Assembly (NCBI GenBank): GCA_017461625.1
Contig: JAFTXJ010000014.1
Location: 44,710 to 108,709 of the forward strand
Source: Clostridia bacterium
GTDB taxonomy: Bacteria; Bacillota; Clostridia; Oscillospirales; Acutalibacteraceae
Reading direction: 5' to 3'
DNA length: 64,000 nucleotides
Shown here: positions 45,888 to 64,000 of the stretch, in pieces
Layout of the letters: every line of letters starts with the position of its first letter
Position numbering within the stretch: position 1 is the first letter of the stretch
Translations under genes and position numbers: made by a program
Notes under the pieces: model-generated
Told to the model about the DNA's origin: nothing
Database searches by the model: none
What the model saw: the letters and a program-made list of their open reading frames with translations, nothing else

Positions 45888-48812
45888 ATGAAAAATAAGT
45901 TAAAAAAAGCATTGTCATTTGTTTTAGTGACAATTATTCTCTTCTCAGCCATACCTTTTGGTGGCTTGACTGTTTTTGCAGCAGAAGAAACCTACAGTGG
46001 CACATGCGGTGATAACCTCACATGGAAATTTAATGACTCCACCGGCGAATTAAAAATCACCGGCTCAGGTGCTATGGATGATTATAGCCCCGATAATCGC
46101 CCGTGGGAATCATATGTGAACACAATCAAAACCGTAACAATCGGTGACAGTGTAACAACCATCGGTAAATTTGCATTCCTTTGTTGCTCCAGTATTAAGT
46201 GCGTAACAATCGGCAATAGTATAACAAGCATAGGCTATATGGCGTTCCGTTATTGTGGAAACCTTATAAACATAACGATTCCTGACAGTATAACAAGCAT
46301 AGGCGAGAGTGCGTTCGAACATTGTTCTAGTCTCACAAGCATAACAATCCCCGACAGTGTAACAAACATAGAAGAATATGCGTTTTCTAACACCGCATAC
46401 TATAACGATACGAACAATTGGGAAAATGATGTTCTTTATATTGACAATCATCTTATTGATGCAAAGGATACAATAAAAGATTCATATGAAGTAAAAGAAG
46501 GAACATTAACAATTGCAGAACAGGCGATCGACCATTGTCCTTGTCTCACAAGCATAACAATCCCCGACAGTGTAACAAACATAGGCAATTATGCGTTCTG
46601 GGATTGTAAGGATCTCGCAAGCGTAATAATCGGTAACGGTGTAACAAGCATAAGTAGTTCTGTGTTCTCCGGTTGCGGAAGTCTCACAAGTGTAACAATC
46701 CCCGACAGTGTAATAACCATCGGTGATGATGCATTCTCTTGGTGCGACAGTCTAACAAACATAACGATTCCAGAAAGTGTCACAAACATCGGTTCTTATG
46801 CATTCGCTGGTTGCGGCCTTACAAGCGTAGCAATCGGCGACAGTGTTACAACCATCAGTGATCATGCATTCTATTCTTGCGACAGCCTTGCCGATATATA
46901 TTATTCAGGTACACATGAGCAATGGGATAATATTTCAATTGGCTCATATAATGATCCTTTGTTTAATGCAACAATTCACTTCCTTGGAGAGGTTGCTGTT
47001 CCTATTTTCGAAGTTTATCAGGTAAGCAAAAATGGGGATATCTTAACAGTAAATATTGATTTAACAAAAAATACATTTCATGCATTAGATCTTGCTTTTG
47101 AAATGGAAGGTCTTAAATGCACAGAAATTGAACCGGGCGATGCTCTTTTACGACTCTCCCCATATGAGTATTCGTACAATCCTGATGCTGCTGAACCTTA
47201 TTCTAACTTAGCTGTTGCTGCTTTGGATGGAGTCACTCCCGGAACTCTTATAACTGTAACACTTGAAATAATTGATGAAGAGTTTAGTTTCACAGCTAAA
47301 GCAACAAGTTGCGTAGTATCGGATGATAATTCTAACGATATCACCGTTCAGCCAATAATAAATGGTGTAGTTTTTGGAAAAAATAATGAAGAACCAGAAA
47401 AGTATACAATAACCTACGATGCAAACGGTGGTTCTAATGCCCCTGCTTCTCAGACGAAAACAGTTGGAGTTGATTTGGTACTTTCTGATTCTACACCAAA
47501 CAGAAGTGGTTATAACTTCCTTGGTTGGTCAACTGATAAAAACGCAACAGTTGCCCAATATCTGCCCGGCAGCATTTTCTCTACAGATGCAGATACAACG
47601 CTGTACGCTGTTTGGAAGTCAAACAACATTTACAATCTCGGCGAAGAAACATATAGTTTTGACAATTTTGGTGACAGTTATAGTAATGGTCACTGTTTCG
47701 GTATGTCTATAACAAGTTCAGGTTATTATACCGAAAATCTGGACAGAAGCATAATCGGTTTAAGTAATTATAATCTTTACGGTCAAGGTTATTCTGAAAC
47801 AATCAAAAAACCAATATGCCATTATCAGCACATACAGGGTAATTTTACAAGGCGCGCTCTTGTTGCAGGCTCTATTACATATTATCATGATGGAAAAACA
47901 TCCGCTCAATGCTGGAATGAAGTGTTAAACTATGTTAAATCGCATGAGTATGATCATAAAGGAAATCTTCAGATTCAAATTTGGAAAAGCGATACCAGCG
48001 GACATGCCGTAAATTTCCTGTACTACAAAAACGAAAATGGTCAAGACAGACTCTATGCGTACGACAACAATTTCCCAAATACGGAAGTATATTTCTATTT
48101 GGGAAGCGACGGAAAAATATATGAAGCACCGAAGTCTACTTATGGAAATTCATATACGGAAACAATATGTTTAGTCGATATGAACCGATATTTTGAAGTT
48201 GCCCAAGACTACAAGCCGGATGACTATGCTTATGCAGAAAACGGTGAGGTTGATATCGAATCAGCAAAAGCTTTTCCGATGGCTTGCTCCGACACCATGG
48301 AAGGCATGTTAATGTATGAATTACCGGAGAATTCAAACAAGATCATTATTACGCCTAAAGTTGATAATGCGACCTTTGAGTATATGGAACAAACCTATAG
48401 CTTTGGCGATATTGATGAGGATACCTACGGAATACTTACTCTGTCTGACTCGGAAAATATTGATGGCGCAAATTTCATTATCAAAAATGAGCCCGGTTCA
48501 GGCAAAGTCAACTCCGTCTCAATCGGCAACATTGAGATGAACTATAAAGATTCAACAACAATCAGACCTGAAATCAATGTTGATGATGGCGTTGAATACA
48601 CAGTTACATATTCATCATCAGACACAGATGTTGCATATGTTGACGAAAACGGCAACGTTACCGCAACAGGTAAGGGTAATGCAGAAATCACTGTAACTGT
48701 TACCGATGGATACGGTAATGTTGTAACAGATACCTGCGATGTGGAAGTTAAATACACATTCGGTCAGTGGCTGATTATAATTCTTCTTTTCGGTTGGATT
48801 TGGTACATTTAA
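45888..48812 (+). CDS. BspA-type LRR surface protein with cohesin-like, InlB-repeat, putative cysteine-peptidase and Big_2 domains
   Basis: 974 residues. Signal peptide (about 1-32), BspA/LRR_5 repeats (about 60-370), a cohesin-like beta domain (about 375-500), an InlB/Listeria-Bacteroides repeat (about 505-575, YTITYDANGG to TTLYAVWK), then an approximately 250-residue region with GHCFGMS, SGHAVNF and AYDNNFP. Cys603, His706 and Asp726 have the order expected of a papain-like peptidase. A Big_2 domain (about 885-955) and the tail FGQWLIIILLFGWIWYI follow. It is secreted and probably surface-retained. Peptidase assignment is by motif only. The start follows TTGGAGGAAATAAT. Confidence 0.85.
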   Translation: MKNKLKKALSFVLVTIILFSAIPFGGLTVFAAEETYSGTCGDNLTWKFNDSTGELKITGSGAMDDYSPDNRPWESYVNTIKTVTIGDSVTTIGKFAFLCCSSIKCVTIGNSITSIGYMAFRYCGNLINITIPDSITSIGESAFEHCSSLTSITIPDSVTNIEEYAFSNTAYYNDTNNWENDVLYIDNHLIDAKDTIKDSYEVKEGTLTIAEQAIDHCPCLTSITIPDSVTNIGNYAFWDCKDLASVIIGNGVTSISSSVFSGCGSLTSVTIPDSVITIGDDAFSWCDSLTNITIPESVTNIGSYAFAGCGLTSVAIGDSVTTISDHAFYSCDSLADIYYSGTHEQWDNISIGSYNDPLFNATIHFLGEVAVPIFEVYQVSKNGDILTVNIDLTKNTFHALDLAFEMEGLKCTEIEPGDALLRLSPYEYSYNPDAAEPYSNLAVAALDGVTPGTLITVTLEIIDEEFSFTAKATSCVVSDDNSNDITVQPIINGVVFGKNNEEPEKYTITYDANGGSNAPASQTKTVGVDLVLSDSTPNRSGYNFLGWSTDKNATVAQYLPGSIFSTDADTTLYAVWKSNNIYNLGEETYSFDNFGDSYSNGHCFGMSITSSGYYTENLDRSIIGLSNYNLYGQGYSETIKKPICHYQHIQGNFTRRALVAGSITYYHDGKTSAQCWNEVLNYVKSHEYDHKGNLQIQIWKSDTSGHAVNFLYYKNENGQDRLYAYDNNFPNTEVYFYLGSDGKIYEAPKSTYGNSYTETICLVDMNRYFEVAQDYKPDDYAYAENGEVDIESAKAFPMACSDTMEGMLMYELPENSNKIIITPKVDNATFEYMEQTYSFGDIDEDTYGILTLSDSENIDGANFIIKNEPGSGKVNSVSIGNIEMNYKDSTTIRPEINVDDGVEYTVTYSSSDTDVAYVDENGNVTATGKGNAEITVTVTDGYGNVVTDTCDVEVKYTFGQWLIIILLFGWIWYI

Positions 48813-53443: not shown

Positions 53444-53956
53444 TTATTTATCAAAGCTTGGGTTAAATGCGTAAAAGTTCTTGCAATCAAGTCTGTCTGT
53501 TGCAAGTCGCAGTCCTTCTCCGAATCGCTGATAATGAACAATTTCTCTTGCTCTGAGGAATTTGATAGGTTCTCTAACATCAGGGTCATCCACAAGGCGA
53601 AGAATATTGTCGTAGGTAGTTCTGGCTTTTTGTTCAGCTGCAAGGTTTTCGTGAAGGTCCGTAATCAGATCTCCCTTTGACTGCATACTTGAAGCACTCC
53701 ATGGGAATCCGCTTGCTGCTGTAGGATAAACTCCTGTTGTGTGGTCAACAAAATATGTGTCAAACCCCGACTTTTTGATTTCATCGGGAGATAAATTTCT
53801 TGTTAACTGATAAACAATAGCACCAATCATTTCAAGATGTGAAAGCTCTTCTGTACCGATATCGGTAAGAAGACCTTTAAGCTCGGCAAAAGGCATCGAA
53901 TAACGTTGGCTGAGATACCTCAGCGATGCTCCCAACTCACCATCCGGCCCACCATA
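53444..53956 (-). pseudogene. cotJC: cotJC, C-terminal part (split by the intervening element)
   Basis: 170 codons plus stop, beginning at the att core with YGGPDGELGASLRYLSQRY and ending AFNPSFDK. It matches CotJC, a spore-coat protein with a manganese-catalase fold (metal-ligand segments TEELSHLEMIG and LRAREIVHYQRFGE are visible). The usual first 28 or so residues are missing. A TTG at 53962 could give an ORF but has no ribosome binding site and lies in element DNA. The missing N-terminus is at 63838-63951. Joining the parts at the shared core restores one frame of about 198 residues. Confidence 0.92.
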
Positions 53957-53972
53957 CCGCAAAAGGATATAA
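53949..53972. other. attL junction of the intervening element
   Basis: Core CCACCATA (53949-53956) shared with 63860-63867, followed by CCGC and the arm AAAAGGATATAA (53961-53972), which is the inverted complement of the arm at 63838-63849. Confidence 0.88.
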
Positions 53973-53973
53973 C

Positions 53974-55410
53974 TTATACATAAAAAAATAAAGCGAAGTT
54001 ATTTTGGGGTTTTTGGAAGACAATTTTTGTTAAAATCGAGCGTAATGCTTGATTTTTTGCTAATTCTGATATGTCGGGGTTGGTGATTGTATCAAGCACG
54101 CCCTGCACCTTATCCGAGAATGCACCCATATCCACCGGGGGCGGAGCTTGCTCCTTTGCCTTTTCGGCTTCAAGGGCATCAATGGTCCTTTGGATATACA
54201 CCTTATTCTCCTTGTATTCATCGGCCGTATCAATACCCGAAAGATATGCCTCTTTTGCTCGGTCAAACTTAATACGCTCCTTCTTAATCAGAGCATCATA
54301 GTCAATTCCGCTTTTCTGCTCTTCTCTGGGGGTGATATTAAATTCAGCCTTCCTCACGCACTCCTGCAACGCTTCAATCACAATCTTATTAGCCTTTGCG
54401 ATTGAGATACAGTGTGACACCCTGCAGATGTCGCCTTTGGTGTAACGGTAACACTGCATCGACGGGCATTTAGTTGAAAGGTGGGTGAGGGTAGAGCCAC
54501 AGTCACACCTCATTATGCCTTTGAGCATCCATTCCACAGGCTGCTCACTTCTCTGATATTTGCCGTACATCTTTTCACCATCCCCGAGCTTGCTCTGAAC
54601 TTTATCCCACAGCTCATTGTCAATAATCGGCTCATGCTTGCCGTCAACAATCATTGTGTTGGGGTTGTGCCAATCTCTTTTGGCTGAAATTCTGCCCTCA
54701 GTGGACCAACGGATTTTGCCCACATAAACAGGGTTGTAAAGCATATACCGAATATTCCTTGCCTCAAACATATTACCTCTGTGGGTGCGGTAGCCCTTTG
54801 AATTGAGCTTCATCGCAATCTGCCTCATAGGAACTCCGTTGAGGTAGTCTGTAAAAATCTCACGCACTGCAGGAGCTTCGTAATTGTTGGGGGTATATAC
54901 CTTATTTTCAATGTCATAACCAAACGCAGGGTGGCACATTGCTTCACCGCGTGTTGCCTTTTCTGTCATACCACGCTTGACTTCCTGAGAAAGTCGGGTT
55001 GAATAGTATTCGTCAAAGAATTCAATGTTACGCTCAATCAGAGGGGCGAAAGGGGAATCGTCAATGCTCTCACTGATAGAAATAACCGAAACATTGTTTC
55101 TCTTAAGCAGAGCCTTGTAGATGATGCTTTCTTCTTGATTTCGTGCAAATCGTGAAAACTTCCACACCAGTATAGCATCGAAGGGGTGATCCTTTGACTT
55201 TGCGTGAGCAATCATATCGTTGAACGCCTTACGCTTTTTAACAGAACGACCGGAAATACCGTCGTCATAAAAAACATACTTTTTCGGCACAAAGTAGCCG
55301 TTGTTCTTTGCGTATTGCTGAATGAGCTTAAGCTGGCTGTCGGGGGAATATTCATCCTGCCTGTCGTCAGATACACGAAGATATGCAGCAGCGGTTCTCA
55401 AAGTTTCCAT
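53974..55410 (-). CDS. Large serine recombinase (element integrase/excisionase)
   Basis: 478 residues. The N-terminal resolvase domain (about 1-150) has the catalytic serine in AAYLRVSDDRQ and the arginine-rich VWKFSRFARN. The recombinase domain (about 160-270, with HPAFGYDIE and MLYNPVYVGKIRW), zinc-ribbon cysteines (MRCDCGSTLTHL ... CRVSHC) and a coiled-coil region (about 360-420) follow. It ends 17 bp from the attL core, the classic position. It should catalyse integration into and excision from cotJC; excision usually also needs a directionality factor, not identified here. Confidence 0.95.
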   Translation of the reverse strand: METLRTAAAYLRVSDDRQDEYSPDSQLKLIQQYAKNNGYFVPKKYVFYDDGISGRSVKKRKAFNDMIAHAKSKDHPFDAILVWKFSRFARNQEESIIYKALLKRNNVSVISISESIDDSPFAPLIERNIEFFDEYYSTRLSQEVKRGMTEKATRGEAMCHPAFGYDIENKVYTPNNYEAPAVREIFTDYLNGVPMRQIAMKLNSKGYRTHRGNMFEARNIRYMLYNPVYVGKIRWSTEGRISAKRDWHNPNTMIVDGKHEPIIDNELWDKVQSKLGDGEKMYGKYQRSEQPVEWMLKGIMRCDCGSTLTHLSTKCPSMQCYRYTKGDICRVSHCISIAKANKIVIEALQECVRKAEFNITPREEQKSGIDYDALIKKERIKFDRAKEAYLSGIDTADEYKENKVYIQRTIDALEAEKAKEQAPPPVDMGAFSDKVQGVLDTITNPDISELAKNQALRSILTKIVFQKPQNNFALFFYV

Positions 55411-55479
55411 ATCTGCACCCCCTCAGTTAAGTTTATTCGGTTTTTGAGCATAAAAATAACCGCCCTTTCTAAAAAATGG

Positions 55480-55591
55480 TTGCAAAAACCTAAGAAAGGC
55501 GGTATAATACATATGCACCTTTCTTCTTCGGCTTATGAGATTGTGTGTGACTTTTCTCCCTCGGAGTTGCAGCTCCGGGGGAGATTTTTTT
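55480..55591 (+). ncRNA. Candidate small RNA in the element
   Basis: TTGCAA (55480-55485), 17-bp spacer, TATAAT (55503-55508), then about 75 nt ending in a terminator (CTCCC-TCGGAG-ttgca-GCTCCG-GGGAG and seven T, 55556-55591). An inverted repeat ACCGCC...GGCGGT (55459-55503) spans the promoter, perhaps an operator. It runs opposite to the recombinase and the genes upstream of it, so it would be antisense to any read-through between them. A 28-codon frame is open but has no ribosome binding site. Confidence 0.5.
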
Positions 55592-55595
55592 GTTT

Positions 55596-56324
55596 TTAGC
55601 TGATTTGAGGATTAACGAGGTAACATTCGGTGAACATTCCACCTGAATAGTTTGTGTAGGTGTAAATTCTTTCAAAAGAGAATGAACCATCTGAACCAAT
55701 CATACCGGTATCGTTGTTGACGGATTCTCCCGATATGGGTCGTTGGGTGGTAGGTTTAAAGTTACTTGTTTTGTCGTATATTAAATCGAAGTTTATATTT
55801 TTACCTGCCAATTCAGGTGAAGTATTACCAGTGAGTATAACCTTAATTTTAACTTGGTCACCATATTTGATAGAAGTAGTGTATTGTTCTTTTTGACTAT
55901 ATTCGACTGTATTTGTTGACTCAACAATGAATGAAAGGTCGGTTAAATTCACTTTGTAATCTTTTTCTACAATAACATCGGAAAACCAATAGTATGTGTT
56001 GTACTCATTATCGTAGTATTCTTCACATTCGTAACCGTAGTCAGCATGGCGATATTTAACATAACGAATATTAAACTGCATCTTTTGGGTTTTAGCGGTT
56101 TCAATCTTTTCGCCTACAGAATATTTTTTTACAGTAGTGTTGTATGTTGTCAAAACTGGATTATATTTAAGTGTGTGCTTATCTTCCAATGAAGACACAA
56201 CACCGTTCAGAGATTCAACCTGGCTTTCAAGAACGCCGACTCTGTCTTCAATAGTGTGGTCTACGATAACATAACCGGTAGAACCGAGAAGAATGGTTAA
56301 TGCTAATGCAATTATTCTTTTCAT
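55596..56324 (-). CDS. Hypothetical exported protein of the element
   Basis: 242 residues from the ATG at 56324 (8 nt after AAGGAG; an ATG 6 nt earlier is too close). An N-terminal signal or anchor (about 1-20) is followed by a short coiled-coil (RVGVLESQVESLNGVVSSLEDK) and a beta-rich domain. Family not recognised. It overlaps the end of the gene upstream, forming an operon with it and the repressor. Confidence 0.7.
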   Translation of the reverse strand: MKRIIALALTILLGSTGYVIVDHTIEDRVGVLESQVESLNGVVSSLEDKHTLKYNPVLTTYNTTVKKYSVGEKIETAKTQKMQFNIRYVKYRHADYGYECEEYYDNEYNTYYWFSDVIVEKDYKVNLTDLSFIVESTNTVEYSQKEQYTTSIKYGDQVKIKVILTGNTSPELAGKNINFDLIYDKTSNFKPTTQRPISGESVNNDTGMIGSDGSFSFERIYTYTNYSGGMFTECYLVNPQIS

Positions 56325-56326
56325 AA

Positions 56327-57655
56327 TCATATCTCCTTAGTGATATTTTCATTTTCTGCAAAGTGTGGATAACCGTTATTTCGCATTGCTTCAACTATTT
56401 TTTGGTAGTTCTTTGTGTTTCCTGTTTTCATTCGCCTGTATCCAGTCAGGGTTTTGGGTGCGATGTTTGGTAAAACAGCTTCAACGAGCTTGTATTCCTG
56501 TGAACTTTGCCACTGTGATTTATAGCGACTCTTTTGCAACTCATAAGAATCAAGCAATGAATGAGGAGACGAAAGATATCTTTGATGAAGCCTCTTTTCA
56601 TAATCATCCCTTGTATCTATAAATGGTCTGTTGCTGTATTTGATGGCATCAAAACTAATTGTTTTATAAAGACCGGTATCTTCATCAAAAACAGTGTCTT
56701 CAATAGTGCAGCCTTCAAAATAAAAGAAGGCAAAAAATCGGTGACGGCATCCGGAGTGGAATTTACCTGTTTTAATGACTTCTACAGGTAGCTTGGGAAA
56801 TCTTTTATCGCGGCCACTAACAGAGTAAACCCTATTTTGGTATTTTGAACAGATACCACAGGTGGAATTATGACTAGGTGTAAAGACTAAATCGTGGTCG
56901 GAAATCAAATCTTTAAAATATTTATATTCATTTTCTTTTAGGCGGTCTTCTACTTTTTGTGCTTCCAAATATATTTTGTCGGCAGTTTCAAATTCACCTA
57001 TTTTCATAAGTGAATTTGATAGAGATAAGTAATCTCGGGAATACCACTGAGATTTTGATTTCTTCATTAATTCAATTGCTTTGAAAGCAGTGGTAACACG
57101 CATCTTGTTATCATCAATTAAGTCAACTCTATTTTTGATTACAAATGATAAATCGTAAGAAATATCTCTGACTGGATTGAATTGCTGAATATCAATTGAT
57201 TTCACATCGTAAGGGTTGTTCAAATCAAATATGTTACCCTCAATAATGAAATAATCGACTTCAGAAGCGGAATTACGATTGTATTCACCCGTACGAGGAT
57301 AAACGCTTTGCAACACACCATCCCTGCTAAAAAAAGCAATTCTTTTACCTTTTAATTCTATTGGAAGTGTTTGCTTGTAGTCTGGTTCAGTGCAATTATA
57401 GGTGGTGTGTTTTTTAACGGTTTTGGTTATTTCTTCTTGCTTAGTTTTGGCTGGATGTGGAGTTTTTCTTATCTTTATGATTTTCTTAATGGTGAAAAAC
57501 AGGGGGACAGCAAACAATGCGACACCGATAAGCCACCAAGGTCCCTCGAACATCATAACCAGGAGCATAAACAAACAACCCGAGCCGAGAAGAACAGAGC
57601 ATAGAATCAATATTATTAACATCAATATTGTTTTTATCTCTTTTTTGGAAGACAT
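56327..57655 (-). CDS. Element membrane protein with phage minor-capsid-like cysteine motif
   Basis: 442 residues. Two N-terminal membrane segments (about 8-30 and 36-58) precede a cytoplasmic region with TPR-like helices. A Cys/His segment follows (CGICSKYQNRVYSVSG, RFPKLP, HSGCRHRF) that resembles the C-terminal motif of phage minor head (MuF/SPP1 gp7-like) proteins. No other head genes are present, so this may be a captured domain in a membrane protein. Exact role unknown. It starts 16 nt after the repressor gene and is probably lysogenically expressed. Confidence 0.65.
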   Translation of the reverse strand: MSSKKEIKTILMLIILILCSVLLGSGCLFMLLVMMFEGPWWLIGVALFAVPLFFTIKKIIKIRKTPHPAKTKQEEITKTVKKHTTYNCTEPDYKQTLPIELKGKRIAFFSRDGVLQSVYPRTGEYNRNSASEVDYFIIEGNIFDLNNPYDVKSIDIQQFNPVRDISYDLSFVIKNRVDLIDDNKMRVTTAFKAIELMKKSKSQWYSRDYLSLSNSLMKIGEFETADKIYLEAQKVEDRLKENEYKYFKDLISDHDLVFTPSHNSTCGICSKYQNRVYSVSGRDKRFPKLPVEVIKTGKFHSGCRHRFFAFFYFEGCTIEDTVFDEDTGLYKTISFDAIKYSNRPFIDTRDDYEKRLHQRYLSSPHSLLDSYELQKSRYKSQWQSSQEYKLVEAVLPNIAPKTLTGYRRMKTGNTKNYQKIVEAMRNNGYPHFAENENITKEI

Positions 57656-57671
57656 ATAATCATCCTTTTAT

Positions 57672-58301
57672 TTAAAACTTAGCTCTGAGCTCAACAACTC
57701 TGCCGATGACCTGAACGGGGAGGGAGTTAACCTCATCAGGGGTATAGAAAAACGGGTCATAGGTAGGATTGGTTGATACGAGCTTGATACCGTTATCTGA
57801 ACGGTAGAATTTTTTAACTGTTGCATCGTCACCGTTTACAAGCACAACGGCAATTTCACCATTCTCAACTGTTTCCTGCTTGCGAACGATAACAACATCG
57901 CCCTCTGCAAATCTTGGCTCCATGCTATCACCTTTGATAACAAGGCCGAAGTGTTCGCCTTTGGCGGCATCTTCTTTGCTGATTTCCTCGTAATCAATAA
58001 TATTCTCAACAGCAGTCATAGGAACACCGGCACGAACATAACCGAGAACAGGAATCATAACACCTGTTGTTGCTGCAGGGATGTCGATAAGACCTTCAAT
58101 TTCTTCTCTACGGATGAGATTATCCATATTAACATTGAAAAAATCTGCAATAATTTCCGCAGTTTCAAAATTAGGCTGTCGCTTGCCGTTTTCATACATA
58201 CTAATTGTACTTTTCGCAATACCGATTTGTTGAGCCAACTCTTCTTGTGTGAGCTTGTGTTGAACCCTTAATTTCTTTAAATTTTCATTAAACATTTTCA
58301 T
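57672..58301 (-). CDS. CI/LexA-like phage repressor with S24 peptidase domain
   Basis: 209 residues from 58301 (58295 is an alternative start). The N-terminal helix-turn-helix (LTQEELAQQIGIAKSTISMYENG) is followed by an S24/LexA self-cleavage domain: cleavage site region YVRAGVP (Ala-Gly), catalytic Ser in GDSMEP and Lys in TVKKFYR. It should keep the element's early genes off and be inactivated by RecA-dependent cleavage after DNA damage. Its own promoter (TTGACT-N17-TATTAT on the minus strand) contains an operator. Confidence 0.93.
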   Translation of the reverse strand: MKMFNENLKKLRVQHKLTQEELAQQIGIAKSTISMYENGKRQPNFETAEIIADFFNVNMDNLIRREEIEGLIDIPAATTGVMIPVLGYVRAGVPMTAVENIIDYEEISKEDAAKGEHFGLVIKGDSMEPRFAEGDVVIVRKQETVENGEIAVVLVNGDDATVKKFYRSDNGIKLVSTNPTYDPFFYTPDEVNSLPVQVIGRVVELRAKF

Positions 58302-58318
58302 CACCTGTGACGATAATA

Positions 58319-58406
58319 TCACGAAATGTGAAAAAAGTCAATAAAAAATTCACAAAATGTGTTGACAAAGTGAAAAAAGGGTGCTATCATAAGTACACAG
58401 TTCGTG
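58319..58406. promoter_or_regulatory. Divergent CI/Cro control region with three CAC-N5-GTG operators
   Basis: Operators: O1 TCACGAAATGTGA (58319-58331) inside the repressor promoter spacer; O2 CACAAAATGTG (58351-58361) next to the -35 of the rightward promoter; O3 CACAGTTCGTG (58396-58406) just after it. The rightward promoter is TTGACA (58362-58367), 17-bp spacer, TATCAT (58385-58390). The layout is that of a phage immunity switch. Confidence 0.75.
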
Positions 58407-58426
58407 AACAGAAGGGAGGTTTTACG

Positions 58427-58642
58427 ATGAATAAAATGATTATGGCTAAGCGATTGACCGATGCAAGAGGTGACAGGAGCAGGGAAACCGTTGCTTCTGA
58501 AGTAAAAATCAGCGTTTCAGCGCTTGCAATGTATGAAACAGGTCAGCGTGTGCCAAGGGATGAAATTAAGGTGGCTCTTGCAGAATATTATGGTTTAAGC
58601 ATAGAGTTTCTTTTTTTTGCCTCACAAGTACACAGTCCGTGA
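58427..58642 (+). CDS. Cro-like XRE helix-turn-helix protein
   Basis: 71 residues from the ATG at 58427 (GGGAGGT upstream). KRLTDARGDRSRETVASEVKISVSALAMYETG is a Cro/CI-type helix-turn-helix. As the first rightward gene opposite the repressor it is positioned as Cro. Its last codons contain a fourth operator (58631-58641). Confidence 0.85.
   Translation: MNKMIMAKRLTDARGDRSRETVASEVKISVSALAMYETGQRVPRDEIKVALAEYYGLSIEFLFFASQVHSP
58631..58641. promoter_or_regulatory. Fourth CAC-N5-GTG operator overlapping the end of the Cro-like gene
   Basis: CACAGTCCGTG lies within a 21-bp near-copy (one mismatch in the first 20) of the O3 region at 58391-58410. Confidence 0.6.
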
Positions 58643-58679
58643 ACAATCCCACACCAAAATCAACAGGAGGTGAGAAAAG

Positions 58680-59003
58680 TTGTTTAGAGAAAGATTACCA
58701 CGTATCGAAATATACGGGCATCAAACCGGAGATAAAGGCACGGTTACTGATGTTTATATTGATGGTAAAAAAATAGACCAGGTTTCAGCTGTTAGATACG
58801 AATGTCAAGCCGGGAAATTTACGACTGTTTCGATCGACTTCTTGACAGACGATGTGACTATTGTTGAGCCGGATATGGAACTTAGAGAAAATAATTCTGG
58901 AGGTTTTGCAAAATATCATCGAGATTGGATAGTACCGCTACCGACAATGATAGGACCGATGCAAAGATTGAGAGAATTATTGAGACGTTGGCTTTCAGAT
59001 TAG
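58680..59003 (+). CDS. Hypothetical element protein
   Basis: 107 residues from a TTG start behind AGGAGGTGAGAAAAG. The N-terminal two-thirds is beta-rich (DKGTVTDVYIDGKKIDQVSAVRYE). No family recognised; likely a phage accessory protein. Its last 120 bp overlap the end of an oppositely oriented gene. Confidence 0.65.
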   Translation: MFRERLPRIEIYGHQTGDKGTVTDVYIDGKKIDQVSAVRYECQAGKFTTVSIDFLTDDVTIVEPDMELRENNSGGFAKYHRDWIVPLPTMIGPMQRLRELLRRWLSD

Positions 59004-59232
59004 GGTGTCTGAATTCATAAAACTTTAGTCCTTCGTAGGTTACAACTGGATTTGAAATATCCATGATAATGGCGTTAGTTATAGAACGATTAACTTTTAA
59101 GCCGAGTACATATCCGTTGCTGTCGCAAGCTGCGGCGTGTTCTAAAAGGTTATTCGGAATTGGTTTGTTGTGAAGAATACACTTTATGACTTTACGCATA
59201 CCTTTTTCAAATAACCAAGTTCTAATGTACAT
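58882..59232 (-). CDS. Hypothetical small membrane protein of the element
   Basis: 116 residues, credible ribosome binding site (AAGGATGTGAAATT). The N-terminal part (VIKCILHNKPIPNN, GLKVNR, VVTYEGLKFYEF) vaguely resembles YjcQ-like winged-helix phage proteins; the C-terminal part has one membrane helix (VSIILSIFASVLSLSVAVL). Convergent and overlapping with the gene at 58680. Confidence 0.5.
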   Translation of the reverse strand: MYIRTWLFEKGMRKVIKCILHNKPIPNNLLEHAAACDSNGYVLGLKVNRSITNAIIMDISNPVVTYEGLKFYEFRHPNLKANVSIILSIFASVLSLSVAVLSNLDDILQNLQNYFL

Positions 59233-59297
59233 AATTTCACATCCTTAGTTTTTTCACAATTATAAACAAACGAAAGGGCAAAATGCAACACCAAAGT

Positions 59298-59398
59298 AAA
59301 AAACCGCCTGAAGCTGGCACTTCAGACGGCAGAAAGGAGATTTGAACATCAATAGTTCAACCACAATCATATTGTAATTCAATTCTCCGACTTTGTCA
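59298..59398 (-). ncRNA. Candidate minus-strand small RNA in the element
   Basis: On the minus strand TTGACA (about 59393-59398), 17-bp spacer, TACAAT (about 59370-59375), then about 70 nt with a hairpin TTGAAC-tattgat-GTTCAA and a terminator CCGTCTGAAG-tgccag-CTTCAGGCGG plus six T (59298-59329). A 35-codon frame starts near the transcription start but has no ribosome binding site. Confidence 0.5.
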
Positions 59399-59448
59399 AG
59401 TATAGGACAAATCTAAATGTTCATATCGTAAAACAAGGAGGAGATGAT

Positions 59449-59640
59449 ATGGCAAACAAAATTACATACACTTGCTTTGTTGAGTATCACGACACAGGCG
59501 AGGTCAAGCCGTTGGCAGACCTGCCGCAAAAAGAGCGAGACCGTCTCGGAACACTTTGGGGAGAGCGAATGGCAAAAACCTTTTCAGAGTATTTTTCACA
59601 GCATCCTCAGGAATTTGAACGGCTCTGCAGTAACAGTTAA
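59449..59640 (+). CDS. Small hypothetical phage-type protein
   Basis: 63 residues behind a strong AAGGAGGAGATGAT site. Composition and position fit small early phage genes; family not recognised. Confidence 0.65.
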   Translation: MANKITYTCFVEYHDTGEVKPLADLPQKERDRLGTLWGERMAKTFSEYFSQHPQEFERLCSNS

Positions 59641-59652
59641 ACCCATCCTTCG

Positions 59653-59764
59653 TCCTGCTCGATGTGCTTCGGGGTCGTTTCCCCCGATTGCTTCACATTA
59701 ATTACAAAAAATAAAATATCAGATTCCATTCTTTAACACCGACCCCGAGGTGCTTCAGGCAGGA
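59653..59764. repeat. Long-range inverted repeat between small element genes
   Basis: TCCTGC (59653-59658) pairs with GCAGGA (59759-59764) and CGGGGTCG (59670-59677) with CGACCCCG (59740-59747), leaving a 62-nt AT-rich loop. Possible RNA structure in the rightward transcript. Confidence 0.5.
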
Positions 59765-59783
59765 TGAGGAGAAAGGACAAGCT

Positions 59784-59978
59784 ATGCCAAAGAATAATAA
59801 TAACGAAAAGCCGGAACATTTCCCGGCACGGTGCAGAAAGTGCATATATCACACCACTTATCCAACAGAGATGTGTGAATACATCATAATAACGGGCGAA
59901 CCGAGAATTGACCCCATAGACAACCACTGCACCAAATACAAAGGAAGGAAGAGAAAACGCAAAAATGAACTACAGTGA
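59784..59978 (+). CDS. Small cysteine-rich phage protein
   Basis: 64 residues. CRKCIYHTTYPTEMCEYI...DNHCTKYKG has four spaced Cys that could bind zinc, a common type in clostridial phages. It follows GAAAGGA and overlaps the helicase gene by 14 bp. Confidence 0.65.
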   Translation: MPKNNNNEKPEHFPARCRKCIYHTTYPTEMCEYIIITGEPRIDPIDNHCTKYKGRKRKRKNELQ

Positions 59979-61470
59979 CTTCTTAGATACAAAGATATGT
60001 GTTGCTGAAGATAGCGGATTTGAAGTTTCTGATGATGAGATAAGTGAAGCCCTGAAACCGCATCAGCGTGAAGCAGTCAAATGGGCTTGTAAAGGCGGTC
60101 GCAGGGCATTGTTTGAAAAGTTCGGCTTAGGCAAAACAATTCAGGAGCTTGAATATTGCCGCCTTGTTTTAAAACATAACGGCGGTCGTGCTTTGCTGAT
60201 TTTGCCGTTAGGTGTAAGACAGGAATTTACACACGATGCAGTTGAGCTTTTGCATATCGACCCACCTCAATATGTCAGAAATATGAAAGAGATTGAAGAA
60301 TCATCGGCAGATATATGTATGACAAACTATGAGCGAGTGAGAGACGGTGATATTAACCCTCAGTTTTTCACCTGTGTTTGTCTTGATGAAGCGGCCGTGC
60401 TTCGCTCTTTTGGTAGCAAAACATATCAGACTTTTTTGCCAAAATTCAAAGGTATTAAATACAAGCTTGTTGCAACGGCAACACCTGACCCTAACAAATA
60501 CAAAGAAATTATACATTATGCCGGATATCTTGAAGTAATGGACACGGGACAGGCTTTAACGAGATTCTTCAAGCGTGACAGCACAAAAGCAAACAACCTG
60601 ACTTTATACCCTCATAAAGAAGAGGAGTTTTGGCTATGGGTGTCATCGTGGGCTCTTTTTCTGTCAACTCCGTCTGATTTAGGATTTCCTGATGAAGGTT
60701 ACAAGTTGCCTGAAATGGATATCAGGTATCACAAGCTCAGTTCGGATATCACACAAACCGAAGACCGAAAGACAGGACAGTTAGCTATTGAAATGGATGT
60801 TGCACAAGGGCTTACTTCTGCTGCAAGAGAGAAAAGAAACAGTCTTGATATGAGAATTGCAAAGATGAAAGAGATTGTTGATTCTTCACCTGATGACCAT
60901 TTTATTTTATGGCACGATCTTGAAGATGAACGCCGGGCAATTAAAAAGGCATTGCCCGAGGCTGTGGAGGTTTACGGTACACAGGACCTTGAGCTCAGAG
61001 AAAAGAATGTTATTGACTTTGCAAACGGCAAAATCAGATTGCTTGCCACTAAAAAGGAAATCAGCGGACAGGGTTGCAATTTTCAGAAATACTGTCACAG
61101 GGCAATTTTTGTTGGAATCGATTACAGATTTAATGATTTTATACAGGCAATCCACAGAATATATCGTTTCTTGCAAACAAAACAGGTAATTATCGACATT
61201 ATTTACACAGAGAATGAAAAAAGCATTCTTGACGAACTTCTCGCAAAATGGGAACGATTTAATTATCAGTCTGAAAAAATGTCCGAGCTTGTTCGAAAGA
61301 ACGGTATCAGCACAACAACTATTATTGAAAAAATGCAGAGAAGTAAAGGAGTTGAGAGAGTGAAGGTTCAAGGAACTAATTATACGGCTGTGCTCAATGA
61401 CTGTGTTTTAGAAACACAGCAAATGGAAAGTAACTCCGTTGATTTAATTCACACATCAATGCCTTTATAG
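59965..61470 (+). CDS. SF2 DEAD-type helicase, truncated at the start of a methyltransferase domain
   Basis: 501 residues. Helicase domain 1: LKPHQREAVKWA, Walker A FEKFGLGKT, Walker B-like VCLDEAA, and TATPDP. Helicase domain 2: HFILWHDLEDE, EISGQGCNFQ and a Q-x-x-H-R-I-Y-R motif. The C-terminus reads TAVLNDCVLETQQMESNSVD and then HTSMPL-stop. In related phage proteins this segment opens a DNA methyltransferase domain, which is missing here. The following bases (61469-61552) are the in-frame tail of another lost ORF, suggesting a deletion. Helicase activity may persist. Confidence 0.85.
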   Translation: MNYSDFLDTKICVAEDSGFEVSDDEISEALKPHQREAVKWACKGGRRALFEKFGLGKTIQELEYCRLVLKHNGGRALLILPLGVRQEFTHDAVELLHIDPPQYVRNMKEIEESSADICMTNYERVRDGDINPQFFTCVCLDEAAVLRSFGSKTYQTFLPKFKGIKYKLVATATPDPNKYKEIIHYAGYLEVMDTGQALTRFFKRDSTKANNLTLYPHKEEEFWLWVSSWALFLSTPSDLGFPDEGYKLPEMDIRYHKLSSDITQTEDRKTGQLAIEMDVAQGLTSAAREKRNSLDMRIAKMKEIVDSSPDDHFILWHDLEDERRAIKKALPEAVEVYGTQDLELREKNVIDFANGKIRLLATKKEISGQGCNFQKYCHRAIFVGIDYRFNDFIQAIHRIYRFLQTKQVIIDIIYTENEKSILDELLAKWERFNYQSEKMSELVRKNGISTTTIIEKMQRSKGVERVKVQGTNYTAVLNDCVLETQQMESNSVDLIHTSMPL

Positions 61471-61552
61471 TTAAGCAAGGCGATGAAATTATCGGCTTTT
61501 TCGATATAGGCGCTGTTCAGTTTATTTATTTAACAAAAAGCAAGGAGAAATA
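61469..61552 (+). pseudogene. Tail of a lost small ORF downstream of the helicase truncation
   Basis: The frame shifted relative to the helicase reads VKQGDEIIGFFDIGAVQF and runs to a stop just before parB-like gene's start, with no start codon of its own. It looks like the 3' remnant of a small protein joined to the cut helicase gene. Confidence 0.5.
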
Positions 61553-61555
61553 ACA

Positions 61556-62848
61556 ATGTCAAATATTCAGTATATCGCAGTAGAAAAAATAACACCGCAT
61601 CCCGGCAACCCACGCAGAGAGTTGGGGGACTTGACCGAGCTTGCGGCAAGCATTAAAGAATCGGGCATATTTCAAAATTTAACAGTCGTTCCCTTTGAAG
61701 ACGGTTACCGTGTTGTAATCGGACACCGCAGGTTGGCGGCTGCCAAGCTGGCAGGGTTAACGGAAGTTCCCTGCACCGTGTCTGATATGGATGAGCGCAA
61801 GCAGGCAGCAACAATGATTCTTGAAAATATGCAACGCTGTGATTTAACCGTGCGTGAACAGGCGGAAGGCTTTCAGATGATGCTTGATTTAGGACACACG
61901 AAGGATGAAATTTCAGAAAAAACAGGTCTTTCAGCATCAACAGTATACCGCAGATTGAAGCTCCTTGAACTCGACAGAGACGGATTTATTCAGGCGACGG
62001 ACAGGGGAGCAACACTTTCAGATTTTGCCGAGCTTGATAAAATCAAGGACACTAAAGTTAAAAACAAGCTTCTTGATTCTATCGGCACAAATAATTTCCG
62101 GTTTGACCTTAGACAAGCTATACAGAAGCAAGATGACGATGAACAGTTTGCAAAGTGGAAAACATACCTTGACAGCTTTGCAACTGAGGTCAAGTCACAG
62201 ATGGATTATGAAAGGGTTGAATGGCTGAGTGTATATTCAACTGACCCACCCGAAACAATCCCCGAAGATGCTGACAAGGTTGAATATTACTACTACCTCA
62301 GCAGATATGATTCGAGCTTGCTTAAAAAGCGTGTTGATAACGGTAAATCACCTGAACAGATAGAGCGTGAGCGTAAAGAACAGGAACGCAAGACCCTTAG
62401 TCAGAAGTTGAGCGATGTTTGCGAAACAGCAAGAGCGTTGCGCCGAAATTTCGTCAGAGAGTATACGGGCAAAAATGAACATTTGAAAATACTTATAGAA
62501 TACTACACCAAACATATAATGTTTAATTCACACTGGACTGATGTGGATGAGGAAGATATGGCAGAAATCTGCTCCATTGAGCTCCCGGAAGATGACGAAC
62601 AGTGGGAAGAGATACTTACTGCAGAGCTCAGTAAGCTCAAGCCGAGAACAATTCTCCTTGCATACATATTCTTATTGAGATTTGACGAGGGAAACGGAAT
62701 GAAACCATACGATTATTACAATAGATTCAGCAGTAGCAAAGACCTTGAAGATTGTTATTCACTTCTCAACGAGCTTGGTTATCAGATGTCTGATGAAGAG
62801 AAAAAACTGCTTGACGGTACCCACGAGCTTTATGTGAAAGGGGAGTAA
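61556..62848 (+). CDS. ParB/RepB-family nucleoid or partition-like protein of the element
   Basis: 430 residues. The N-terminal ParB domain shows ITPHPGNPRRELGDLTELA and VIGHRRLAAAKLAGL; a helix-turn-helix (LSASTVYRRLKLLEL) follows, then a helical C-terminal part. Phage and mobile-element ParB-like proteins bind DNA and may act as CTP-dependent clamps; no ParA is adjacent. The start follows AAGGAGAAATAAC. Confidence 0.88.
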   Translation: MSNIQYIAVEKITPHPGNPRRELGDLTELAASIKESGIFQNLTVVPFEDGYRVVIGHRRLAAAKLAGLTEVPCTVSDMDERKQAATMILENMQRCDLTVREQAEGFQMMLDLGHTKDEISEKTGLSASTVYRRLKLLELDRDGFIQATDRGATLSDFAELDKIKDTKVKNKLLDSIGTNNFRFDLRQAIQKQDDDEQFAKWKTYLDSFATEVKSQMDYERVEWLSVYSTDPPETIPEDADKVEYYYYLSRYDSSLLKKRVDNGKSPEQIERERKEQERKTLSQKLSDVCETARALRRNFVREYTGKNEHLKILIEYYTKHIMFNSHWTDVDEEDMAEICSIELPEDDEQWEEILTAELSKLKPRTILLAYIFLLRFDEGNGMKPYDYYNRFSSSKDLEDCYSLLNELGYQMSDEEKKLLDGTHELYVKGE

Positions 62849-62850
62849 TT

Positions 62851-63192
62851 ATGGCAGAGAAGATTATTATACTTGCCGAAATAGGCAAGCCGTACGCTCT
62901 TACAATTAAGGGTGAAACAATTCCGGTGCGAAATCTTGAGGCTCTTGTAATTGGCAAAATAAAAGAGCTGCCGGCATTGATTGACGGCACGGTCCTTGTG
63001 TTTGGTAAAGATGCCAAGCGTTACGGTATGGGCATCAACGACAAAGCAACAAATCTTGTTAAATCAGATGTAACAGAAGCAATTTACGGCAAAGCGATTT
63101 GGTGCAGAGTTGCAAACGGTCATTTTTGCGGCTTTGAAGAAAGTAGCACCGCCGAACTGCTTAAAACCCTCAACAAGGAGGATGTGCAATGA
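62851..63192 (+). CDS. Hypothetical element protein
   Basis: 113 residues, 2 nt after the ParB-like gene and behind AAAGGGGAG. Mixed alpha/beta protein (PYALTIKGETIPVRNLEALV); family not recognised. Translationally coupled to the next gene by an ATGA overlap. Confidence 0.6.
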   Translation: MAEKIIILAEIGKPYALTIKGETIPVRNLEALVIGKIKELPALIDGTVLVFGKDAKRYGMGINDKATNLVKSDVTEAIYGKAIWCRVANGHFCGFEESSTAELLKTLNKEDVQ

Positions 63193-63713
63193 GCAAGAGA
63201 GAAAAGAAAAAGCTTAAGAGAATTCGCAAGGTGTTTGACATTATTGAAGATATATCATTGTTAATATCTTTTTTAGGTGTCTTGGGTTTAATTACGGTTA
63301 GCGGCCTTTTAATGGGTTGCTGCTGTTCTTCTTGTGCTGAGGTTGAATTTTATAATCCCGACAAGACTTATAATTACTCAAATAAAGTGATGTTTGTTGA
63401 AAGTGGAATAAAGCTCTCTGACGGCACCTTTTATTATATTCCTTTGGGCTATTACAACACCGAACCTCCTGAAAGTGATAACGATTGGTACACAGTAAGA
63501 ATAAAAGCCTATGATGATATTTACAAAATGACATCAAAATGGACAACGTCTCTTACGTATCCTGCCTCAATTTTTTCGGTGCTGACCGAAACGGCAGAAA
63601 AATATAACCTTTCTTTGCATTGGGCAAACAACAACTATTACCCACTTACAAAACCACCCACACCCTCAGAGTTTATAGAAATTCTCTATAACTACACACA
63701 ACACCGGGAATAA
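63189..63713 (+). CDS. Hypothetical membrane protein of the element
   Basis: 174 residues. A basic N-terminus, one membrane segment (about 22-45, LLISFLGVLGLITVSGLLMG) and a CCCSSC cysteine cluster precede an extracytoplasmic domain. Family not recognised. Last rightward gene before the element's terminators. Confidence 0.65.
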   Translation: MSKREKKKLKRIRKVFDIIEDISLLISFLGVLGLITVSGLLMGCCCSSCAEVEFYNPDKTYNYSNKVMFVESGIKLSDGTFYYIPLGYYNTEPPESDNDWYTVRIKAYDDIYKMTSKWTTSLTYPASIFSVLTETAEKYNLSLHWANNNYYPLTKPPTPSEFIEILYNYTQHRE

Positions 63714-63719
63714 CCCGAA

Positions 63720-63757
63720 TCCCTCATCTGACCACAGGTGAGGGGGATTTTTTTGTC
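63720..63757 (+). terminator. Terminator of the rightward element operon
   Basis: CCCTCATCTG-acca-CAGGTGAGGG followed by GATTTTTTT. Confidence 0.85.
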
Positions 63758-63796
63758 GGTGCTTACAAATCTTTACAATGTGACAGTGATATTAAA

Positions 63797-63836
63797 ATAA
63801 AAGGAGCTGGCAGTTTTGATTCTGCCCGCTCCTTAT
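63797..63836 (-). terminator. Element-borne terminator facing cotJB-cotJC
   Basis: On the minus strand AAGGAGCGGGCAG-aatcaaaa-CTGCCAGCTCCTT followed by TTATTTT. It lies just inside the element and would stop transcripts coming from cotJB and the cut cotJC. Confidence 0.8.
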
Positions 63837-63837
63837 C

Positions 63838-63867
63838 TTATATCCTTTTACAACCCAGTCCACCATA
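63838..63867. other. attR junction of the intervening element
   Basis: Arm TTATATCCTTTT (63838-63849), 10 bp, then core CCACCATA (63860-63867). The arm is a perfect inverted complement of the arm at 53961-53972. Confidence 0.88.
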
Positions 63868-63951
63868 TTGACTGATAATTATCTGTGCATATTTGGGGTT
63901 GGGGTTAGAGATTTTAACAGGGAATTGAAGCTTTTTTTCATAAACAAACAT
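63838..63951 (-). pseudogene. cotJC: cotJC, N-terminal part (split by the intervening element)
   Basis: Starts at 63951 behind GAAGGAGG and gives MFVYEKKLQFPVKIS, then NPNPKYAQIIISQ (28 codons), before the core. This is the conserved N-terminus of CotJC. As it stands it continues nine codons into the element (YGGLGCKRI) and stops. Joined at the core to 53444-53956 it restores SQYGGPDGELG in frame. Confidence 0.92.
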
Positions 63952-64000
63952 CAGCAACCGCCTCCTTCATAATCCCACGGCCATGGATTTTTGAGCCATC
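63951..64000 (-). CDS. cotJB: cotJB, C-terminal end (partial, runs off the window)
   Basis: The last 15 codons read WLKNPWPWDYEGGGC and stop with TGA overlapping the cotJC ATG (TGATG). The PWPWDYEGG ending and the position before cotJC fit CotJB, a small spore-coat protein encoded with CotJC. Confidence 0.8.
   Translation of the reverse strand, partial: WLKNPWPWDYEGGGC

Follow-up and report, generated by a model that had tools for sequence, protein, structure and literature searches.

The coat catalase gene cotJC of this Acutalibacteraceae genome is split at its Tyr-Gly-Gly codons by an element 9.9 kb in length with an 8-bp core at both ends, situated at the right end of the 64,000-nucleotide stretch of DNA analyzed here (the window). 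The features of the locus are as follows, in window coordinates.

53444..53956, minus strand: 3′ part of cotJC including the core, ∼170 codons to the stop, with a Mn_catalase match above cut-off
53949..53956: left core copy, 8 bp, CCACCATA
53961..53972: left inner attP arm, AAAAGGATATAA, from the sequence and a symmetry test
53974..55410, minus strand: large serine recombinase (LSR), 478 aa, site-A clade, with Resolvase and Recombinase domains
55596..56330, minus strand: 244-aa protein with no family match
56327..57655, minus strand: 442-aa protein that matches phage minor-head proteins weakly, under the Pfam cut-off
57672..58322, minus strand: phage repressor, HTH and S24 peptidase
58430..58642, plus strand: small HTH protein, Cro-like by position
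59449..59640, plus strand: protein of 63 aa in PHROG 26314, a family of unknown function; candidate recombination directionality factor
59965..61470, plus strand: phage-type DNA helicase, 501 aa, apparently 3′-truncated as judged by eye
61556..62848, plus strand: ParB-like protein, 430 aa
63189..63713, plus strand: 174-aa piece with relatives among the long phage tail-type proteins that site-A elements carry in genomes G011, G012 and G014
63838..63849: right inner attP arm, TTATATCCTTTT, from the sequence and a symmetry test
63860..63867: right core copy, 8 bp, CCACCATA
63860..63951, minus strand: 5′ part of cotJC, about 28–31 codons, adjoining cotJB, with its ATG start at 63951

Fusion of the two parts at the core gives a single 198-aa CotJC frame; the frame of the C-terminal half begins with TTG at the attachment site and ends at 53444. 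That the gene encodes a CotJC manganese catalase is seen from its family match, its metal-ligand residues and its position after cotJB, and the same genome encodes a second CotJC-like catalase with 37% identity. The window ends at the end of its contig (C5), and a second contig (C21) overlaps the last 5037 bases with 1 mismatch and runs on into cotJB and a small gene placed where cotJA would lie, such that both cotJC halves lie on one chromosome. Mis-joining of contigs is ruled out by this overlap and by six single-contig assemblies in which cotJC is likewise split within the one contig (G024, G071, G168, G189, G262 and G293).

An uninterrupted cotJC is present in a congener, G007, whose protein is 99% identical; the 1149 bp aligned contain no gaps, the junction included, and the two cotJC genes differ at 70 synonymous and 3 nonsynonymous positions. 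The initial annotation, which had proposed an in-frame split of cotJC with the core within the Tyr-Gly-Gly codons and had called for an empty site in related genomes, is thus borne out by the frame, the shared core copies, the rejoined protein and the intact relative. An 8-bp repeat is weak evidence alone, but its agreement with the frame, the empty site, the recombinase and the attP symmetry makes chance very unlikely, and we reject a chance repeat as the explanation.

The recombinase is also located as first described, with its stop codon 17 bp from the left core; it is full length and retains the residues conserved within its clade. When the inner ends of the element are circularized they read TTATATCCTTTT-22 nt-AAAAGGATATAA, a perfect 12-bp inverted repeat flanking the core, and 16 of the 24 symmetric positions match, which 0.25% of shuffled arms from the site-A set do as well. 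The two domains and the symmetric attP together assign the enzyme to the large serine recombinases; its match to the NCBI XisF model is far below cut-off. A symmetric site also follows the 42% related recombinase of a complete 32-kb phage, and the cotJC core is absent from that site. Beside the other recombinases of the window's genome, looked over by eye, there are no evident sporulation-gene halves.

The initial description of the element as complete holds for its ends and recombination parts, but not for its phage content, which is decayed and comprises only early-region genes, the weak minor-head match and the 174-aa tail-type piece; the head, tail and lysis set of an intact prophage was not found within it. 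Jointly with the excision model described below, we regard the element as probably a decayed temperate phage. The search for a directionality factor called for initially yielded a conserved candidate at 59449–59640, small proteins like it being present in 97 of 160 loci, but its role is one that we infer, and we propose it as the directionality factor on that footing. The candidate proteins measure 63–73 aa.

Splitting of cotJC is widespread in the family, ruling out a single odd genome. Collinear pieces on one contig are found in at least 36 of 300 family genomes (a hand count), and a looser count among the matches listed gives signs of a split in 96 of 233 genomes, with 106 intact and 31 paralogue-only or unclear, although the 96 include genes stopping at contig ends and genomes with one piece only. 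The same-contig, split and intact lists were transcribed by hand, and 45 and 58 chosen genomes were re-searched. Four insertion sites, A–D, positioned by hand, lie near metal-ligand codons; a first junction search scored against the window protein was noisy and left the site-B pair of G014 unjoinable, and position displays served instead for reading the cores. In a tree of 27 LSRs the clades track the insertion site, and 26 of the 27 full-size enzymes lie no more than 65 bp from a junction; the tree omits G298 (frameshifted) and G195 (192 aa), as well as G006, G008 and G011, with no recombinase in the stretch fetched. Among the best 80 named LSR relatives, 73 adjoin a cotJC piece. In the cultured relative Ruminococcus flavefaciens SAb67 it is a recombinase of the site-A type that adjoins such a piece. 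Some cotJC genes hold three elements, and the elements range from prophage-like down to 2.3-kb units consisting of an LSR, a small protein proposed as directionality factor and one cargo gene (e.g. an amidase or a superoxide dismutase). Neither half contains a stop in 23 of 24 splits checked for frame; for genome G119 no stop was met in the stretch read past the C-terminal part. Splits at four sites of this one gene within the family make a stronger case for its reconstitution than the window alone does.

Three genomes of genus g119 share a 2.3-kb element without phage genes, which looks vertically inherited. Both cotJC halves in this genus are under purifying selection (dN/dS 0.030–0.062), as is the LSR (0.165–0.219), and this suggests that cotJC is regularly restored there.

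We favor, with some reserve, a model in which a decayed phage is excised precisely by its own recombinase in the mother cell, restoring CotJC. The recombinase would use the Tyr-Gly-Gly codons as its attachment site and, together with the small candidate directionality protein, would remove the element precisely, such that whole CotJC could be made; by analogy with skin, removal would occur in the mother cell, which is doomed anyway, and the germ line would retain the element. We infer excision, its timing and its cell type, and regard mother-cell excision during sporulation as the best explanation of the combined analysis; cotJC probably needs joining at the DNA level before use. A broader and more tentative proposal, to which we give somewhat less than an even chance, is that cotJC is a gene with DNA introns, in which up to three independent recombinase elements occupy four fixed sites and have to be removed before function, some having been reduced to 2.3-kb excision cassettes with cargo, which are inherited vertically and kept by the host.

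Ordinary lysogeny, with cotJC as a phage attachment gene, no CotJC made while the element is resident, and excision confined to phage induction or chance events, seems to us unlikely, although several observations suit it. Site-A recombinases occur on viral contigs (80 loci of 197 relatives were kept), with a cotJC piece in about 16 of the 80 (19 listed, 3 of them weak), and with the core TAYGGNGG no more than 90 bp from the recombinase stop in 12 of 48 loci lacking cotJC, compared to a 1.3% background. The elements of G011, G012 and G014 have prophage-like content, and the available part of PMC3533761 indicates that the catalase activity of B. subtilis CotJC seems unimportant for coat assembly. 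Against lysogeny are the phage-gene-free units of g119 and the strong selection on both halves after the apparent split.

Less probable again is that the element is stuck and cotJC dead in the species, the splits being young or neutral and tolerated through a second catalase or lost sporulation. The second CotJC-like gene and the decayed phage content would fit such a relic, as would two absences from the window's genome (86.6% complete) that we count against the excision model, with no SpoIVA found and no sigma-E match above cut-off; the two Spo0A_C matches there, which likewise count against that model, fall in short frames, one of 118 aa and one of 70 aa. Within the genus, SpoIVA is above cut-off in 9 of 18 genomes, and 15 of 18 have a sigma-E match of at least 322 bits, 9 of these above cut-off. 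Also counted against excision are the second CotJC-like catalase, the frameshifted site-A recombinase of G298 and the site-D element of G195 with only a 192-aa recombinase. However, a relic would not be expected to keep a full-length recombinase with its clade-conserved residues, nor cotJC halves free of decay, and cotJC goes together with SpoIVA in the family, just 7 of the 96 listed split-cotJC genomes being without it. The available part of PMC3416734 lists cotJC within the sigma-E regulon. In a scan for sigma-E-like promoters, at most 4 of 200 shuffles were as good for G293, G068, G131 and G034, compared to 93 of 200 upstream of the window candidate gene and 482 of 500 for cotJA, the latter two weighing against the excision model. 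The motif ATAGGAYR, noticed by eye ahead of several candidate genes, was dropped, since just 2 of the 23 regions upstream of cotJA contain it. That the two CotJC parts act as separate or complementing polypeptides with no need of excision is very improbable: selection on both halves would be expected from it too, but the C-terminal frame starts with TTG at the attachment site, the cuts fall near metal-ligand codons and the conserved recombinase is left unexplained.

The series from prophage-like elements to 2.3-kb units near metal-binding codons extends across a family of gut bacteria and, if excision is true, is a natural series bearing on why elements settle in mother-cell genes; it then also asks whether hosts domesticate such elements and how small an excision unit can be. 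It also provides sets of recombinases that differ in their sites, together with a family of candidate directionality factors, and it is a caution that genomes scored as having a broken or absent cotJC may only have it split.

Regulated excision restores host genes in the Listeria comK prophages and the heterocyst nif elements, with several elements in the nif region; these differ in hosts, genes and signals. Closer are the skin elements in sigK of B. subtilis and of C. difficile, the recombinase of the latter being CD1231 and its directionality factor the 72-aa CD1234 in the available part of PMC5025042. In common with skin, the window element is prophage-like, lies in a mother-cell sporulation gene, and has an LSR and a small protein (here a candidate for the directionality role), and we find an in-frame split with direct repeats, an empty site in a relative and a recombinase of its own at the end; the likeness to skin and SPbeta suggested at the outset fits precise insertion in cotJC. 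It differs from skin in that the target is a coat catalase gene, with several sites, several elements at once and a spread over many genera within one family. SPbeta in spsM, vfbin in spoVFB, gin in gerE and yin in yabG (PMC10747680, PMC5595907) likewise lie in sporulation genes between short direct repeats and have a serine recombinase, and gin is non-phage, as are the small units here; in the available parts of these two papers each is described as one element in one gene, and cotJC is not named among the split genes. The phi027 prophage of C. difficile adjoins cotG, a CotJC-like gene from this catalase family, although the available parts of PMC11222575 and PMC12122855 place this gene adjacent to or downstream of attR and do not describe it as split. 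In the family studied here one sporulation gene is split repeatedly, the known splits that we found described, in the available parts of these sources, being single elements in single genes.

The element at 53949..63867 in the window is real, and is one of many found in cotJC across the family Acutalibacteraceae. Its principal features, in window coordinates, are:

53949-53956 and 63860-63867, the 8-bp core CCACCATA, at both element ends
53974-55410, recombinase with both domains typical of large serine recombinases (LSRs), its stop 17 bp inside the left core
59449-59640 (+), 63-aa protein, candidate directionality factor

The initial annotation held that the element splits cotJC in frame, that excision would give about 198 residues, and that a serine recombinase lies 17 bp inside the left end. 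All of this is borne out: the cotJC halves joined at CCACCATA form a 198-aa frame with no stop, and the stop distance and both LSR domains agree. The joined inner ends read TTATATCCTTTT-22 nt-AAAAGGATATAA, with the symmetry centre on the GG of codon 31. This is the best centre in 10 of the 16 site-A elements tested (site A being the break position of the window element), with a modest mean symmetry over the 16 (13.4/24, where swapping the arms gives 11.4 and shuffling them 11.0). The element still encodes a repressor and a small HTH protein, along with a helicase, a ParB-like protein, a tail-type piece of 174 aa and a weak match to a minor-head protein; it is a decayed prophage.

The window is G000:C5:44710-108709, from an assembly of 1.85 Mb in 21 contigs (86.59% complete). 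Contig C5 ends 133 bp beyond the right core, and G000:C21:1-5037 matches the last 5037 bases of the window (58964-64000) with one mismatch, with cotJB next on C21; integrated and excised forms within the sample might have caused the contig break. Elsewhere in the window are two large secreted-looking proteins (2397-4541 and 45888-48812) with many similar 'ITIPDSVTSIG'-type repeats, as seen by eye.

An empty site was found within the genus. The uninterrupted cotJC of G007 shares 99% protein identity with the rejoined window gene and aligns without gaps over the junction; of the changes between the two genes, 70 are synonymous and 3 nonsynonymous. Among 18 genus genomes, the window's included, cotJC is whole in seven; in nine it shows up in pieces or passes into other sequence, and two are unclear (in G001 it stops at a contig end; G006 keeps the last codons only).

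Across the family there are four break sites in cotJC:

Site A, CDS nt about 85-92, Tyr-Gly-Gly
Site B, CDS nt 183-193, Asp-Ile-Gly-Thr
Site C, CDS nt 405, Ala-Ala-Glu (based on fragments from several genomes together with a single pair on the same contig, in G276)
Site D, CDS nt 513-525, Arg-Phe-Gly-Glu

CotJC was matched in 233 of 300 genomes drawn from the family; by a loose count, 96 of the 233 have any sign of a split, 106 are whole, and 31 are unclear or have a paralogue only. By hand count, 36 genomes, six of them single-contig assemblies, have collinear pieces on one contig, drawn from the genus genomes and two further sets, of 45 and 58 selected genomes:

G000, 014, 020, 024, 034, 038, 042, 045, 057, 068, 071, 083, 119, 131, 135, 141, 143, 168
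G189, 195, 201, 206, 221, 228, 230, 234, 238, 245, 249, 262, 269, 276, 285, 293, 298, 307

The pieces lie from 2.3 kb (G135, G228, G293) to about 99 kb (G249) apart. G038, G083 and G269 each have four pieces, and thus three breaks, with three of the four in order on one contig in G038. On G296:C50 the pieces share a contig out of gene order, as though a rearrangement had taken place between attachment sites.

In alignment, CotJC Glu35, Glu65/His68, Glu136 and His169 correspond to metal-ligand residues of manganese catalases. With site positions placed by us, A lies 4.0 codons from Glu35, B 3.0 from Glu65/His68, C 1.3 from Glu136 and D 5.5 from His169; four random sites were all equally near ligands in 0.4% of draws, and each by a different ligand group in 0.035%. 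The four site windows are jointly more conserved than random (P 0.02), although singly this is clear for A only. This could simply mean that phages aim at codons with no freedom to drift.

Selection was examined in genus g119, where G135, G228 and G293 carry an element at the same site with a common gene order. Synonymous divergence is alike for recombinase (pS 0.50–0.63) and cotJC (0.58–0.68); together these points suggest vertical inheritance, with repeated gain a possible alternative. dN/dS is 0.032–0.035 for the cotJC C-halves and 0.030–0.062 for the N-halves, compared to 0.165–0.219 for the recombinases and 0.083–0.122 for the amidases; G071 and G189 agree (0.016 and 0.130). Such constraint would not be expected of a cotJC that can never be made whole. 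The family keeps splitting cotJC and, judging from this test in one genus, seems to go on using it.

The elements range from phage-like to small. Long proteins common to the site-A elements of G011, G012 and G014 we read as of tail and capsid type; the g119 element holds an Amidase_6 protein, a 73–76-aa protein and the recombinase. Other cargo includes transporters or sugar genes, a GH25-LysM protein (G119) and two Fe/Mn superoxide dismutase genes:

L091:1112-1777, in the G298 element
L092:1404-2033, in the G234 element

Because SodA reportedly aids cross-linking of coat proteins (PMC3533761), this last cargo may be meaningful, which we offer as a suggestion only.

Of 27 full-size recombinases recovered, 26 end at most 65 bp from the junction (the exception, G015, is at 3.9 kb). 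They group by site: 15 site-A recombinases form one clade (98/98), six site-D recombinases another (100/99), and five of six from site B a third (100/100), with that of G016 separate on a long branch. The site-A recombinase of G298 (L091:2426-3905) lies in three overlapping frames, frameshifted in the assembly through either error or decay. Two copies of a 558-aa LSR occur on C6 and C18 of G000 (L269:107-1783 and L271:3804-5480), identical over the first 70 residues shown and with different surroundings.

Among the best 80 of 528 relatives in named genomes, 73 abut a site-A-break cotJC piece; going by title, most are Clostridia, Oscillospiraceae or Ruminococcus of gut and rumen origin, with one isolate, R. 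flavefaciens SAb67. There are also 197 viral relatives, and among the best 80 a convincing cotJC piece is present in 16. Of 48 that lack cotJC and offer enough sequence, 12 have TAYGGNGG at most 90 bp from the recombinase stop (1.3% of random stretches do) and 36 do not; the 12 look like attP sites carrying a cotJC-like core.

A family of small proteins supplies our candidate for the site-A recombination directionality factor. Iterated searching unites the 73–76-aa g119 protein, the window 63-aa protein and others, with members at 97 of the 160 site-A recombinase loci, both in phages and in genomes. The window member has a match to PHROG 26314, whose function is unknown, and its predicted fold (pLDDT 92.9) combines a hairpin with two helices. 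In the selection comparisons above, the candidate small protein is faster-evolving (pN/pS 0.42–0.55). A second small family (G071, G189, G262) was neither enlarged nor merged by its own search, and in three site-B elements and five of the seven at site D the recombinase has dissimilar proteins directly upstream of it.

CotJC co-occurs with SpoIVA, being present in 215 of 256 genomes with SpoIVA versus 18 of 44 without (P 7.5e-9). Within the 18 genus genomes, SpoIVA is over cut-off in nine, and 15 have a sigma-E match of at least 322 bits, nine over cut-off. The window's genome shows no SpoIVA and no sigma-E over cut-off, and its Spo0A_C matches fall in short frames. The long sigma-factor frame of most relatives, which we take for RpoD, is also absent, so the assembly probably lacks part of the genome, but this species may possibly have lost sporulation. 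Redundancy with CotJC is possible for a second CotJC/Mn-catalase-like gene in this genome:

G000:C10:44380-45048 (L001:1501-2169), 222 aa, 37% identical to CotJC

A literature search that covered mainly open-access journal articles turned up no description of an element intervening within cotJC. The likely mechanism is that the recombinase and its small partner protein would excise the element from cotJC. By analogy with skin, the element excised from sigK in the mother cell, excision would most likely occur in that same cell type.
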